From Myxacorys almedinensis A (GTDB taxonomy: Bacteria; Cyanobacteriota; Cyanobacteriia; Leptolyngbyales; Leptolyngbyaceae): 64,000 nucleotides of DNA. The stretch covers positions 1 through 64,000 of the forward strand of contig NZ_WVIE01000019.1 of the NCBI RefSeq assembly GCF_010091945.1. The letters run 5' to 3'. Positions 41,574 through 46,751 of this stretch are shown one piece after another (position 1 is the stretch's first letter; every line of letters begins with the position of its first letter). A model generated the notes under the pieces. It worked only from the letters and a program-made list of their open reading frames with translations. It was not told the origin of the DNA and did no database searches. A program made the translations under genes and the position numbers.

Positions 41574-42794
41574 TTAGTTCTGCAAAATCTGATGATATAA
41601 ATCGGCATAGCGTTGAGCTTGCAAATGCAGAGAATATTCTTCCAGCGCGATCGCGCGGCAGCTTTCTCGCATCTTCTGACGAAGTGCTTCATCGTCGAGT
41701 AAGGTTTTGATCCCATTGCTTAGATCATCAATATCCTCTGATTTCGCAAGATATCCTGTAATACCCGGACGAATCAGATCAGAAACACCGCCAACATCGC
41801 ACGAAACCATTGGGGTTCCACAAGCCAAGCTTTCCTGCAAAACAAGTGGCAGATTATCTGCACGAGTCGGAAACACAAGCAAATCGGAGGCAGAATACGC
41901 GATCGCTTTAAGGGCATCATCTCTCACATAGCCAAGATTCATCGCCTGAATCCCAACTTTCTCAGCCAGCGTTGGATCTCCTTCTCCTAGCGTCAACATC
42001 ACAATCTCTGCTTTGAGCGATGCGGGTAAGCGCTGTAACGCCGCTAAAACCAAATCGCCTCCCTTCCGCCGCTCTTGCAAATTATGGGCAACAAACAGCA
42101 AAACCTTCTTATGCTGCGGAATGTTTAGGTGATCCCGGCACTTCGCCATTTCAATTGGTTGGTAAGTTTCTATATCAATTCCATTCGGAATGTAGTAGAC
42201 GGGAAACCGGTTAAGGAAGCGTTGATTCGTTAAATCTACAAGCCATCGGCTTGGTGCAATAAACGTGAGTTTTGCTCGATCGTAGACCCAATCTTTCAGC
42301 TTCCATTCCCAATGAGTACTATCTCGGCGAACGGGCGGAAAGATGCTGAGATCTGGACAGTTTCCACAGCCAATTTTCCAGCGATCGCAGCCATAGCTAA
42401 ACGCGCAATGCCCAGTCAGCCACCACATATCGTGCATCGTCACAACAGCAGGTTTCGTTTGAACTAGTTCAGCGATCGCCAGGTAGTTGAAGTAGCCTGT
42501 ATGCAAGTTGTGAAAGTTTAGCAGATCAGCCGATCGATAGAACGAGTGGTATTTAAGCTGAGCGGTCGAAAGCAGGTGAATGTGGTTGAATCCGAGTCGC
42601 TGAGTTAAGAGAGACAATCGTTTTTCGTTCTGAGATGCTTTAGCAATCTGGGCAACTCGCTCGTTGGGCGTTTCCGCCCGACCAACTAACAGATGAGACT
42701 CCACTCCTCGCTTCAGCAAGCCTTGATGTAAGTTATGTCCTGCGATCGCAGCCCCACCGAAATGATCAGATTGATTGATATGGAGAACGCGCAT
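41574..42794 (-). CDS. Family 4 glycosyltransferase
   Basis: The protein has 406 residues from the ATG giving MRVLHINQSDHFGGAAIAG, a typical GT4 acceptor loop; an ATG 6 nt upstream is possible. A conserved Cys region (HCAFSYGCDRWKIGCGNCPD) that may bind metal or stabilise the fold is followed by the donor domain with LLFVAHNLQERRKGGDLVL, TLGEGDPTLAE and DNLPLVLQESLACGTPMVS (E-x7-E-like). This Cys-rich subgroup is common in cyanobacterial and proteobacterial polysaccharide loci. The gene overlaps kdsC by 29 nt, so it is part of the kds operon. Confidence 0.9.
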   Translation of the reverse strand: MRVLHINQSDHFGGAAIAGHNLHQGLLKRGVESHLLVGRAETPNERVAQIAKASQNEKRLSLLTQRLGFNHIHLLSTAQLKYHSFYRSADLLNFHNLHTGYFNYLAIAELVQTKPAVVTMHDMWWLTGHCAFSYGCDRWKIGCGNCPDLSIFPPVRRDSTHWEWKLKDWVYDRAKLTFIAPSRWLVDLTNQRFLNRFPVYYIPNGIDIETYQPIEMAKCRDHLNIPQHKKVLLFVAHNLQERRKGGDLVLAALQRLPASLKAEIVMLTLGEGDPTLAEKVGIQAMNLGYVRDDALKAIAYSASDLLVFPTRADNLPLVLQESLACGTPMVSCDVGGVSDLIRPGITGYLAKSEDIDDLSNGIKTLLDDEALRQKMRESCRAIALEEYSLHLQAQRYADLYHQILQN

Positions 42795-43317
42795 CAGCAT
42801 GATCAGTAGAGGACGAATGATATTTTGCGATCAGATCACAGATTTCACGAACAGCCCCTTGCCCCCCTGCTTTTTGAGTGATGTACATCGCAACAGCCTG
42901 ATTTTCAGGCATCGCATCTGCTACTGTAATCGGAACACCAACGCTCTGCATCGCAGGAAGATCAACTAGATCATCTCCCATGTAAGCCACACAATCGAGA
43001 GGTAAATTTAATGTCTGACACAACTGTTTGAGTGCTACCAACTTATCAGGAACGCCAATGTAAACATGGTGAATTCCTAAACGTTTGGCGCGATGCAAAG
43101 TTGCAGGAGATGAACCAGCCGAAAAAATCGCAACTTCAACGCCGCAACTCATAGCCCGCTGAATGCCTAAACCGTCTTTAACATTGAATTTCTTCAATTC
43201 CTCACCTGTTTCGGTGTAGTACAGCCCTCCGTCGGTGAGAACGCCATCCACATCAAGCGCGAGTAAACGAACTCCGGCCAAGCGTGCCTCAAATTCTGCC
43301 TGAGAAAGTGGTGCCAT
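42766..43317 (-). CDS. kdsC: 3-deoxy-D-manno-octulosonate-8-phosphate phosphatase
   Basis: The 183-residue HAD-superfamily enzyme hydrolyses Kdo-8-phosphate to Kdo. Motif I is LDVDGVLTDGGL at 21-32 with the nucleophile Asp22 and general acid Asp24. A short cap and the C-terminal catalytic MGDDLVDLPAM follow, and the family phrase VADAMPENQAV is present. The length is typical of KdsC. Its start overlaps the kdsA stop by 1 nt (TAATG). It is one of four Kdo-pathway genes found together here. Confidence 0.92.
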   Translation of the reverse strand: MAPLSQAEFEARLAGVRLLALDVDGVLTDGGLYYTETGEELKKFNVKDGLGIQRAMSCGVEVAIFSAGSSPATLHRAKRLGIHHVYIGVPDKLVALKQLCQTLNLPLDCVAYMGDDLVDLPAMQSVGVPITVADAMPENQAVAMYITQKAGGQGAVREICDLIAKYHSSSTDHADARSPYQSI

Positions 43318-45036: not shown

Positions 45037-45765
45037 TCAATAAACTACTAATGCTTTTGCAGCATCAAGATCTTCAGATGTATTGACTTCCAAAACCATT
45101 TTCTCAGAATAACAGACCCGGATCTTAAAACCATGTTCTAAAACGCGCAATTGTTCTAGCGCTTCGCATTGTTCAAACGGGGTAGAGGCAAGTTGAGCAT
45201 AGCTTGTCAAGAAATCTCGACGAAAGGCATATAGCCCTAGATGGTGATACACCGGAACCGTTTCCGGATTACGAAAATAAGGAATCGACGCTCGAGAAAA
45301 ATACAAAGCGTGATGATTGCGATCGCACAATACTTTCACAACATTTGGATCGCTATATCCTAGATTGTGATCTAAAGGAGTGGCTAAAGTCGTCATTTCG
45401 GGTGTTTCCCCTTCCAGATAAGGCTGGACTAACTTCAGTAGCATCTCTGATGTCACGAAAGGTTGATCTCCTTGAACATTCACTACCACATCCATATCTG
45501 GATAGCGATTTGCCACTTCTGCAACACGATCAGTTCCGGTTTCATGGCTGCTCGATGTCATTTCCACTCTTCCCCCAAAGCCACGGACGCAAGCAGCAAC
45601 GTCTTCATGATCAGTTGCAACAACAACTTTAGAAAATGCTGGGCATTGCATCGCTGCTTCGTACACCCATTGCACCATAGGTCGATCGCCAATGTGAAGC
45701 AACACTTTTCCGGGTAAGCGCTGAGACCCATAACGGGCTGGAATCACCGCCAAAATTTTCACCAT
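45037..45765 (-). CDS. kdsB: CMP-Kdo synthetase
   Basis: The 242-residue cytidylyltransferase activates Kdo with CTP to CMP-Kdo. The signature PARYGSQRLPGKVL is at the N-terminus, with VVATDHEDV, ETGTDRVAEVANRYPDMD and NVQGDQPFV following, all of which match KdsB. The final LEQLRVLEHGFKIRV is also a family feature. It overlaps kdsD by 1 nt and is translationally coupled to it. CMP-Kdo is the donor for Kdo transferases, none of which was recognised in the window. Confidence 0.95.
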   Translation of the reverse strand: MVKILAVIPARYGSQRLPGKVLLHIGDRPMVQWVYEAAMQCPAFSKVVVATDHEDVAACVRGFGGRVEMTSSSHETGTDRVAEVANRYPDMDVVVNVQGDQPFVTSEMLLKLVQPYLEGETPEMTTLATPLDHNLGYSDPNVVKVLCDRNHHALYFSRASIPYFRNPETVPVYHHLGLYAFRRDFLTSYAQLASTPFEQCEALEQLRVLEHGFKIRVCYSEKMVLEVNTSEDLDAAKALVVY

Positions 45766-46751
45766 TACAAACCACTCCGCACAATATCATGAAGCCGAAT
45801 CAAGCCTAAACACCGTTGCTCATCATCCACCACAGGCAACACCGAAATCTGCGAAGACCGCTCCTCCATCAGCTTCAAAGCATCGTAAGCCAGCGCTTCA
45901 GCGGTGATCAGAATTGGGTTTGGCGTCATCACTTGTGCCGCCGCTAACGTCGCTAATTCGGCTAAATCTAACTTTTGTATGCAGCGTCGCAAGTCGCCAT
46001 CGGTAATCAACCCCAACAGGTAGCCTTGGTCATTGACAATCGTGACCGCGCCGAGTCCTCCTTGACTGATTGCACCTAACACTTCTAACCAGGAGGCATT
46101 GGGTGCCAGGGTGGGGCTGGCTGGATGCAGCAGATCCTTTACGGTGATCGTGAGGCGTTTGCCCAACCGTCCGGCAGGATGATTGAAGGCAAACTCTTCG
46201 GGTGTAATTTGCTTCAGTTGCATCAAACTCATGGCTAATGCATCCCCGATCGCTAATGCTACTGTTGTACTTGTGGTAGGTGCTAAGTTTAGGGGGCAAG
46301 CTTCCCGATCAACTGATGCATCGAGGGTGACCGTAGCCTGCTGAGCCAAGGTTGAATTCAAATTTCCTAGAATTGCGATCGTAGGAACATTCCGATGCTT
46401 GAGATGCGGCATCATCTGAATCAACTCATCCGTCTCACCACTGTTGCTGAGAATTAGACCTACATCAGCAGAGTTTACAATTCCTAAGTCTCCATGTAGC
46501 GCATCGCAAGGATGTAAAAATACTGCTATTGTTCCGATACTGTTCAAGGTTGCTGCGATTTTCTGAGCAACAATTCCTGACTTACCAACACCAGACAGCA
46601 CCACCTTTCCATGACAGGTTAGAAGTAAGTTCACGGCGTGATCCACCGCTTCGGGATCAAGTTGTTGAGCGGTTCTAGCGATCGCATCTGCTTCGAGTTG
46701 CAGCAGCGATCGGACATGAGACCAATGAAGCTCTGCGTGAATCAATTGCAT
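45765..46751 (-). CDS. kdsD: D-arabinose-5-phosphate isomerase (KdsD/KpsF family)
   Basis: The protein has 328 residues from the ATG giving MQLIHAELHW; a TTG 15 nt upstream is possible. It isomerises ribulose-5-phosphate to arabinose-5-phosphate, the first step of Kdo synthesis. A SIS domain with VVLSGVGKSGIVAQKIAATL, LHPCDALHGDLG and LSNSGETDELIQMM is followed by two CBS domains, the second near QVMTPNPILITAEALAYDAL. This layout is standard for KdsD/KpsF. It is the first gene of the Kdo operon, with a 343-nt leader upstream. Confidence 0.94.
   Translation of the reverse strand: MQLIHAELHWSHVRSLLQLEADAIARTAQQLDPEAVDHAVNLLLTCHGKVVLSGVGKSGIVAQKIAATLNSIGTIAVFLHPCDALHGDLGIVNSADVGLILSNSGETDELIQMMPHLKHRNVPTIAILGNLNSTLAQQATVTLDASVDREACPLNLAPTTSTTVALAIGDALAMSLMQLKQITPEEFAFNHPAGRLGKRLTITVKDLLHPASPTLAPNASWLEVLGAISQGGLGAVTIVNDQGYLLGLITDGDLRRCIQKLDLAELATLAAAQVMTPNPILITAEALAYDALKLMEERSSQISVLPVVDDEQRCLGLIRLHDIVRSGL

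Follow-up and report, generated by a model that had tools for sequence, protein, structure and literature searches.

The window analysed here, a 64,000-nt stretch of Myxacorys almedinensis A (GCF_010091945.1, contig NZ_WVIE01000019.1, positions 1-64,000, forward strand), encodes a complete pathway to CMP-Kdo, the cytidine monophosphate-activated form of 3-deoxy-D-manno-octulosonic acid (Kdo), and raises the question of where this Kdo goes and which enzyme transfers it. According to the available text of one survey, cyanobacteria carry just lpxA, C, D and B, and their lipopolysaccharide (LPS) is without Kdo, heptose and phosphate (PMC3087551); the accessible parts of reviews also describe Kdo as absent from cyanobacterial LPS, one of them citing older reports of Kdo in Anacystis, in Spirulina and in one Microcystis study (PMC4515613, PMC4390846). 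We propose that the Kdo probably enters a surface polysaccharide, and that the favoured candidate for its transfer is a 505-amino-acid (aa) protein encoded in the same window, whose full-length relatives (type A) in the class genomes searched all lie beside kds genes.

The pathway genes form an operon on the minus strand together with a 299-aa open reading frame (ORF) and a glycosyltransferase gene of family GT4, and a second GT4 gene separates kdsD from the 505-aa gene. Cut-offs for family calls are the curated Pfam and NCBIfam (TIGR) bit-score thresholds.

45765..46766, minus strand: kdsD, arabinose-5-phosphate isomerase with SIS and CBS domains (TIGR00393, a subfamily model, 289.3 bits, cut-off 203.7; Pfam SIS and CBS)
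45037..45765, minus strand: kdsB, CMP-Kdo synthetase (TIGR00466, 199 bits, cut-off 155.2)
44141..45040, minus strand: 299-aa protein with a DSD motif, between kdsB and kdsA (no Pfam or NCBIfam match)
43317..44144, minus strand: kdsA, Kdo-8-phosphate synthase (TIGR01362, 414.1 bits, cut-off 314)
42766..43317, minus strand: kdsC, Kdo-8-phosphate phosphatase (TIGR01670, a subfamily model, 173.4 bits, cut-off 106.95)
41574..42800, minus strand: GT4 glycosyltransferase overlapping kdsC (Glycos_transf_1, Glyco_transf_4)
47095..48240, minus strand: GT4 glycosyltransferase between kdsD and the 505-aa gene (Glycos_transf_1)

All four enzymes of the pathway pass curated cut-offs, and the six consecutive genes from kdsD to the first GT4 gene overlap successively by 1, 4, 4, 1 and 35 bases, which bears out the sequence-only reading of this DNA in its description of a single overlapping kds operon with a D-S-D protein between kdsB and kdsA (44141-45040, DSD at residue 107) and a GT4 gene running into kdsC. 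The kds genes recur in other cyanobacterial families, mostly at 49-89% identity (lower in genome G294 and in family f19), which excludes an operon assembled by chance. In one of these genomes, G359, kdsC was not seen in the stretch fetched, such stretches being of varying length.

Is the CMP-Kdo destined for lipid A? The genome behind the window encodes LpxC, but yielded no match to PF04413 (WaaA, Glycos_transf_N; 0/1, with E. coli, Caulobacter and Bacteroides positive as controls) and none to LpxK (0/1), so that ordinary Kdo-lipid A is an unlikely sink and, judged from gene content, a different one is likely. The sequence-only reading had anticipated such a sink and is supported in this, the chromosomal waaA that it named as counter-evidence not having been found. 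In the phylum sample WaaA was detected in 136 of 291 genomes, 132 of them outside the window's class; the four inside it belong to the small-genome family f19, and two of these are weak partial matches below the cut-off. Family f19 (genomes of 2.1-3.7 Mb, with kds genes that are more divergent where examined) is inferred to represent picocyanobacteria. Two of its members, G239 (L047) and G274 (L048), both f19/g65, have a clear WaaA together with kds genes, which sets them apart from all other class members in the phylum sample, and true Kdo-lipid A is possible there.

The candidate transferase is encoded as follows.

49655..51172, minus strand: 505-aa GT-B protein (type A), favoured candidate CMP-Kdo-dependent transferase (PF05159, 26.2 bits, cut-off 20)

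Its match to PF05159 (Capsule_synth, the KpsC/KpsS family) spans profile positions 173-258 of 310 only, and in the window's own genome, to which the search with this model was confined, it is the sole match above the cut-off, the second one (E 0.06, 14 bits) remaining below. Three relatives score 24.1, 20.0 and 25.4 bits. A profile of type A (alignment A1, five homologues; types A and B are defined below) gave four matches at E<=10 among 177635 Protein Data Bank (PDB) sequences, all of them KpsC (E 0.066-0.32), and a profile of types A and B combined (A4) gave eight, the best being KpsC 6mgb (E 0.001), followed by TarL (0.036), a 2-epimerase (0.11), an enkurin-domain protein (0.26) and other KpsC chains (0.27-0.35); phmmer searches of the PDB with single proteins returned nothing useful. 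The protein contains a K-X-H-P motif (K367-P370), which is invariant in all 15 sequences of A4 and aligns with the K-V-H-P of KpsC, as does the S/T..EA..GK stretch that follows. In the available text of the KrkA paper, (K/R)XHP is the motif that binds CMP in sialyltransferases and retaining Kdo transferases (PMC12887879). The assertion of the sequence-only reading that no KpsC/KpsS-type transferase occurs here therefore fails as written, since the 505-aa protein passes the PF05159 cut-off, and its alternative suggestion of the protein at 49.7-51.1 kb is favoured by the family match, the PDB profile match and the genomic linkage described below. Six scanned proteins of types A and B also match NF046086 (BFO_1060; E 4e-8 to 3e-17) and TIGR04396 (surf_polysacc; E 3e-15 to 0.1), the matches falling chiefly in the C-terminal halves and all of them far below the curated cut-offs.

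The distribution of type A was scrutinized in a sample of 291 genomes of the class, searched with KdsA and with types A, B and C. KdsA was above the cut-off in 37 of them, 14 in family f19 and 23 across other families; G185, the only other genome of the window's genus in the sample, is without it. A KdsA tree was built from 40 rows, and only 10 of its 37 inner branches are well supported; one clade (support 96/93) unites 22 of the 23 non-f19 genomes with G172, taken from the phylum sample, and excludes G294, the rows of f19 and those of the other classes. The search with the 505-aa protein returned ten matches at E<=1e-5, all among the 37 KdsA-positive genomes (hypergeometric probability 3e-10, which ignores relatedness and is indicative only). 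Eight of them, the window's genome included, are full-length type A proteins (49-100% identity), and all eight lie beside kds genes: the order is kdsD-B-A-C-GT8-505 in G434 and G361, and in G000, G403, G460, G470, G475 and G486 the 505-aa gene is located upstream of kdsD, from which a GT4 gene separates it. The counterpart of the GT4 gene at 47095..48240 occupies the equivalent place in G403, G486, G475, G470, G460 and Leptolyngbyaceae CSU_1_3, the closest named relative (75% identity over the 505-aa protein), which has the same kds-linked arrangement. Five loci from named genomes agree, four of which probably duplicate G486, G460, G434 and G470, so that CSU_1_3 adds one.

The two weaker matches (G036 and G307, 32-33%) represent type B, which is related to type A (BLAST E 2e-7) and carries a QHG motif. 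Type B was found in seven of the 291 genomes at E<=1e-10; six are KdsA-positive and all seven have it near kdsC, the contig of the seventh, G416, ending inside kdsC directly ahead of the type B gene. Its gene immediately follows kdsC in G215, G416, G444 and G449, and a kdsC-GT8 pair in G036, G307 and G432. A third family, type C, is polysialyltransferase-like (PF07388, above the cut-off in both members tested; nothing useful was returned by its profile from the PDB) and matches 15 of the 291 genomes, 13 of them KdsA-positive, including G005, G070, G338 and G422, where it directly follows kdsC. Matches are remote in the KdsA-positive G036 and G307 (33-36%), and likewise in the two kdsA-negative exceptions, G369 (22%) and G293 (37% over 136 residues, or 26-28% near full length), in whose fetched stretches no kds operon was found. 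The 23 non-f19 kdsA genomes thus comprise eight with type A, six with type B, four with type C alone and five without a clear type. Nine type A or B genomes also have type C, in two cases on other contigs and in the remaining seven (G361, G403, G460, G470, G432, G036 and G307) at a distance of 5-28 kb from kdsA on its contig, which suggests two distinct steps of Kdo addition to a single polymer where A or B accompanies C. Neither type B nor type C was matched in the window's genome. Motif scans of the neighbourhoods were too loose to discriminate, and for one set of neighbourhoods the tblastn display gives the best query per ORF only.

Putative functions in the assembly and export of a polymer are encoded at the following positions.

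51136..52104, minus strand: GT8 glycosyltransferase, regular companion of type A, sharing 37 bases with the 505-aa gene (Glyco_transf_8, 33.8 bits, cut-off 24.3)
55078..56331, minus strand: wzt, polysaccharide ABC (ATP-binding cassette) exporter ATPase with Wzt C-terminal domain (ABC_tran; Wzt_C 38.8 bits, cut-off 30.4)
56380..57291, minus strand: wzm, exporter permease (ABC2_membrane, 65.9 bits)
32937..34277, minus strand: O-antigen ligase/polymerase-type membrane protein (Wzy_C, 42.8 bits, cut-off 31.7)
21116..22255, minus strand: WecA-type phosphoglycosyltransferase, possible initiating enzyme (PF00953 Glycos_transf_4, 107.1 bits)

The GT8 gene accompanies type A in clusters of both class genomes and named genomes, and homologues of Wzm/Wzt occur in at least nine of the 23 non-f19 kds neighbourhoods (G000, G403, G470, G460, G361, G101, G432, G342 and G359). 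The presence of Wzm/Wzt with a Wzt_C domain and of the Wzy_C-type and WecA-type genes suggests an ABC-exported, O-antigen-like polymer. KdsD, KdsA, KdsC and KdsB would, as members of their families, make CMP-Kdo, which the 505-aa protein would use to attach Kdo to a growing surface polysaccharide, and the overlapping GT8 enzyme, given the pairing of the two genes, probably adds the next or previous sugar. Because of the WecA-type gene, the Wzt_C domain and the ligase-type gene, and because WaaA and LpxK were not matched, we infer that the chain is probably assembled on a polyprenyl carrier, exported by Wzm/Wzt and delivered as an O-antigen-like polymer to a lipid A core without Kdo. The Kdo may be situated within the repeat, on a side branch, or at the chain end as a cap read by Wzt_C, in alpha or beta linkage. 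This explanation as a whole, from CMP-Kdo through the 505-aa transferase to an ABC-exported polymer on Kdo-free lipid A, is in our judgement rather probable.

By analogy, the closest working model would be the Kdo-capped O-antigens of Klebsiella pneumoniae O12 and O4. As the accessible text of two papers describes them, Kdo caps the ABC-exported O-antigen in both, and the carbohydrate-binding module of the exporter reads the cap in O12, a module of this kind being predicted in O4 (PMC11231755, PMC9587256). Shared with these systems (WbbB, GT99; O4 ORF7, GT137) are the Kdo genes and a Wzm/Wzt exporter with a C-terminal domain of the cap-reading type; judged from the genes alone, Wzm/Wzt with the C-terminal carbohydrate-binding domain of an ABC-dependent O-antigen system with cap read-out is present in the window. 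In contrast to the WbbB setting, WaaA is absent here, and no WbbB chain was among the PDB profile matches at E<=10. With KpsC/KpsS of group 2 capsules (retaining beta-Kdo transferases, KpsC being GT107) the locus shares PF05159, the K-X-H-P and S/T..EA..GK elements, adjacent CMP-Kdo genes and an ABC exporter, but the 505-aa protein lacks QXXXD at the homologous position and differs in its N-terminal half, the exporter ATPase has a Wzt_C domain, and there is no second PF05159 protein above the cut-off. The N-terminal module of KrkA (GT140, retaining, E. coli K13 capsule) also represents a Kdo transferase acting outside lipid A; the QXXXD described for it again has no counterpart at the homologous position of the 505-aa protein. 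No KrkA chain was among the PDB profile matches, the presence of KrkA in the PDB copy being unchecked. Homologues of the GT140 Kdo-transferase domain do occur in cyanobacteria, according to the available text (PMC12887879). Given the lack of a QXXXD motif at this position, the 505-aa protein is classed, on sequence grounds, as KpsC-like in its CMP-binding half and outside both GT99 and GT107.

Several observations weigh against the 505-aa protein as the Kdo transferase. The profile matches to KpsC are weak and cover about 80 residues only. In retaining Kdo transferases, as far as the available texts describe them, the nucleophile is the aspartate of a QXXXD motif, whose glutamine lies about 36 residues before (K/R)XHP, represented by Asp160 in KpsC-N (PMC10148158) and Asp193 in KrkA (PMC12887879), and this motif was not found in the homologous loop of the 505-aa protein (residues 327-341, delimited by model strands). 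A QHGLD sequence at 260-264, invariant in alignments A1 and A2, was considered as the nucleophile motif and rejected, as it is located in the wrong place, where the N-terminal half ends and 107 residues before KXHP, and type B lacks its aspartate. The AlphaFold model of the protein, a GT-B fold of medium quality (pLDDT 67, pTM 0.57, six sequences), is placed by Foldseek/VIA nearest to UDP-GlcNAc 2-epimerases (Z 15.6, rmsd 4.3, 298 residues), with WaaA 2xci (Z 11.9, rmsd 6.5) tied with many others; KpsC and WbbB are not among the fold matches listed, which we take as evidence neither way. Identity as a UDP-GlcNAc 2-epimerase was itself rejected, Epimerase_2 scoring 16.2 bits against a cut-off of 30.6 (29.3 in one relative). 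Furthermore, six of the eight type A genomes also carry type C, and five of the 23 kds neighbourhoods (G101, G342, G355, G359 and G294) are without a clear type A, B or C; the stretch from G294 does encode a QHG/HP protein, and that from G359 a protein remotely similar to type B (27%, E 6e-6). Finally, a DUF115-like neighbour is also kds-linked, so that the 505-aa protein cannot be picked out by its linkage alone.

Among the rival explanations, the one that survives best, though we regard it as unlikely, is that the 505-aa protein, type B and type C use other sugars and merely travel with the kds genes in polysaccharide islands. Such islands hold many glycosyltransferases, linkage is not independent of ancestry, the type A fold resembles 2-epimerases and other GT-B enzymes, and type C is also matched in two genomes without kdsA (G369 and G293). 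Against this, three families adjoin the kds genes in differing surroundings, and a control, consisting of one island gene tested on 18 genomes, behaved differently: the NAD-epimerase encoded at 35567 was found in six of the 18 kdsA-negative family members (E<=1e-100, one at 81% identity), where types A and B were unmatched and type C was matched only weakly, in G369. Not every island gene is therefore bound to kds.

Less probable still is that the DUF115-like neighbour is the Kdo transferase, or that Kdo is added by both this protein and the 505-aa one, each at a position of its own.

53934..54758, minus strand: 274-aa DUF115/MptE-like protein (PF01973, 23.9 bits, below the cut-off of 34.6)

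DUF115 proteins, among them the Maf flagellin nonulosonate transferases, are similar to GT42 sialyltransferases. In a search of 232 class genomes (against 291 for the other class searches) this protein was matched at E<=1e-40 in four, the window's own and three at 61-67% identity from three families, all kdsA-positive; by location it is also present in G460, G470, G475 and CSU_1_3, and mean column identity over seven rows is 77%. These data are countered by its score below the PF01973 cut-off, by a PDB profile search without a meaningful match, and by its being unmatched in G361 and not shown in type B clusters. It could nevertheless be a second CMP-Kdo enzyme beside the favoured 505-aa protein.

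An improbable alternative is a poly-Kdo linker of the KpsS/KpsC type, built on a phospholipid and anchoring a capsule, as the PF05159 family membership and the nearby ABC exporter might indicate; such a linker needs KpsS and two KpsC modules, according to the available text (PMC10148158), as compared to the single PF05159 protein above the cut-off here, a genome content that is not that of a group 2 capsule, and the Wzt_C domain and ligase-type gene indicate an O-antigen. Ordinary Kdo-lipid A synthesis, which the complete CMP-Kdo pathway would permit, is very improbable and was rejected as far as the PF04413 and LpxK models reach in an assembly of 4.96 Mb with a completeness rating of 100%.

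Equally remote is the 299-aa DSD protein as Kdo transferase, which the sequence-only reading had put forward (44.1-45.0 kb). The position of its gene inside the operon, with 4-base overlaps at both ends, speaks for it, but it was rejected because no relative of it showed up in the other kds neighbourhoods examined and because of its low G+C content; moreover, a DXD motif, of which the DSD at residue 107 is its only one, usually signals enzymes using nucleoside-diphosphate sugars, in the accessible text of the source (PMC6388019). A tblastn search of the fetched kds neighbourhoods returned only the protein itself, the G+C content of its gene is 0.376 compared to 0.467 for the whole window, and its single-sequence model (pLDDT 33) is unusable. 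The gene resembles a private insertion and is probably dispensable for the use of Kdo; a recent insertion is possible, yet it overlaps both neighbours by four bases. Variable additional genes are also found inside the kds operons of G422 (L107), G432 (L108), G338 (L110), G460 and G470, those between kdsD, kdsB and kdsA in relatives encoding 540-aa glycosyltransferase-like proteins (PF13524), acyltransferase-like proteins and membrane proteins (partly called by eye), and the operon appears to be especially prone to insertions.

Two further genes are located between the GT8 gene and the DUF115-like gene.

52112-52891, minus strand: 2OG-Fe(II) (2-oxoglutarate- and iron-dependent) dioxygenase-type protein, adjoining the GT8/505-aa pair (family match)
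52984-53904, minus strand: 306-aa protein with a G+C content of 0.362 (no family match)

The Kdo hydroxylase KdoO is a dioxygenase of this broad kind, and the dioxygenase-type protein, a homologue of which lies directly beside kdsD in G361 (L076:5183-5944), might modify Kdo. Homologues of the 306-aa protein were found in CSU_1_3 (L079) and G359 (L113). At 59553-61678 an exosortase (PF09721, 142 bits) adjoins a 335-aa protein on the opposite strand, whose C-terminus, judged by eye, resembles a PEP-CTERM sorting signal.

KpsS/KpsC, KpsU and KpsF were surveyed in cyanobacteria by Pereira et al. in 2015, who found KpsS/KpsC scarcely correlated with KpsU and KpsF (0.118 and 0.146) and whose paper, in its available text, names no kds-linked transferase family (PMC4594306). 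CMP-Kdo synthesis was predicted in two of three Chroococcidiopsis strains, according to the accessible text of a 2026 paper (PMC13308351). No title or abstract on a kds-linked Kdo transferase in cyanobacteria was found in the literature covered, which leaves out most subscription journals.

More tentatively than for the single locus, and with somewhat less than even confidence, we consider that WaaA-free photosynthetic cyanobacteria may possess a modular Kdo-glycan system, in which a conserved kdsD-B-A-C set is combined with at least three interchangeable candidate CMP-Kdo transferase families (types A, B and C) for ABC-exported polymers on Kdo-free lipid A, types A and B representing a new family outside GT99 and GT107. 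If this is true, one or more families would be added to the CMP-Kdo transferases. With candidate transferase families tightly linked to kds genes where WaaA is missing, it can be tested directly which cyanobacteria make Kdo glycans, at which position the Kdo is situated, and whether the old positive Kdo assays held.

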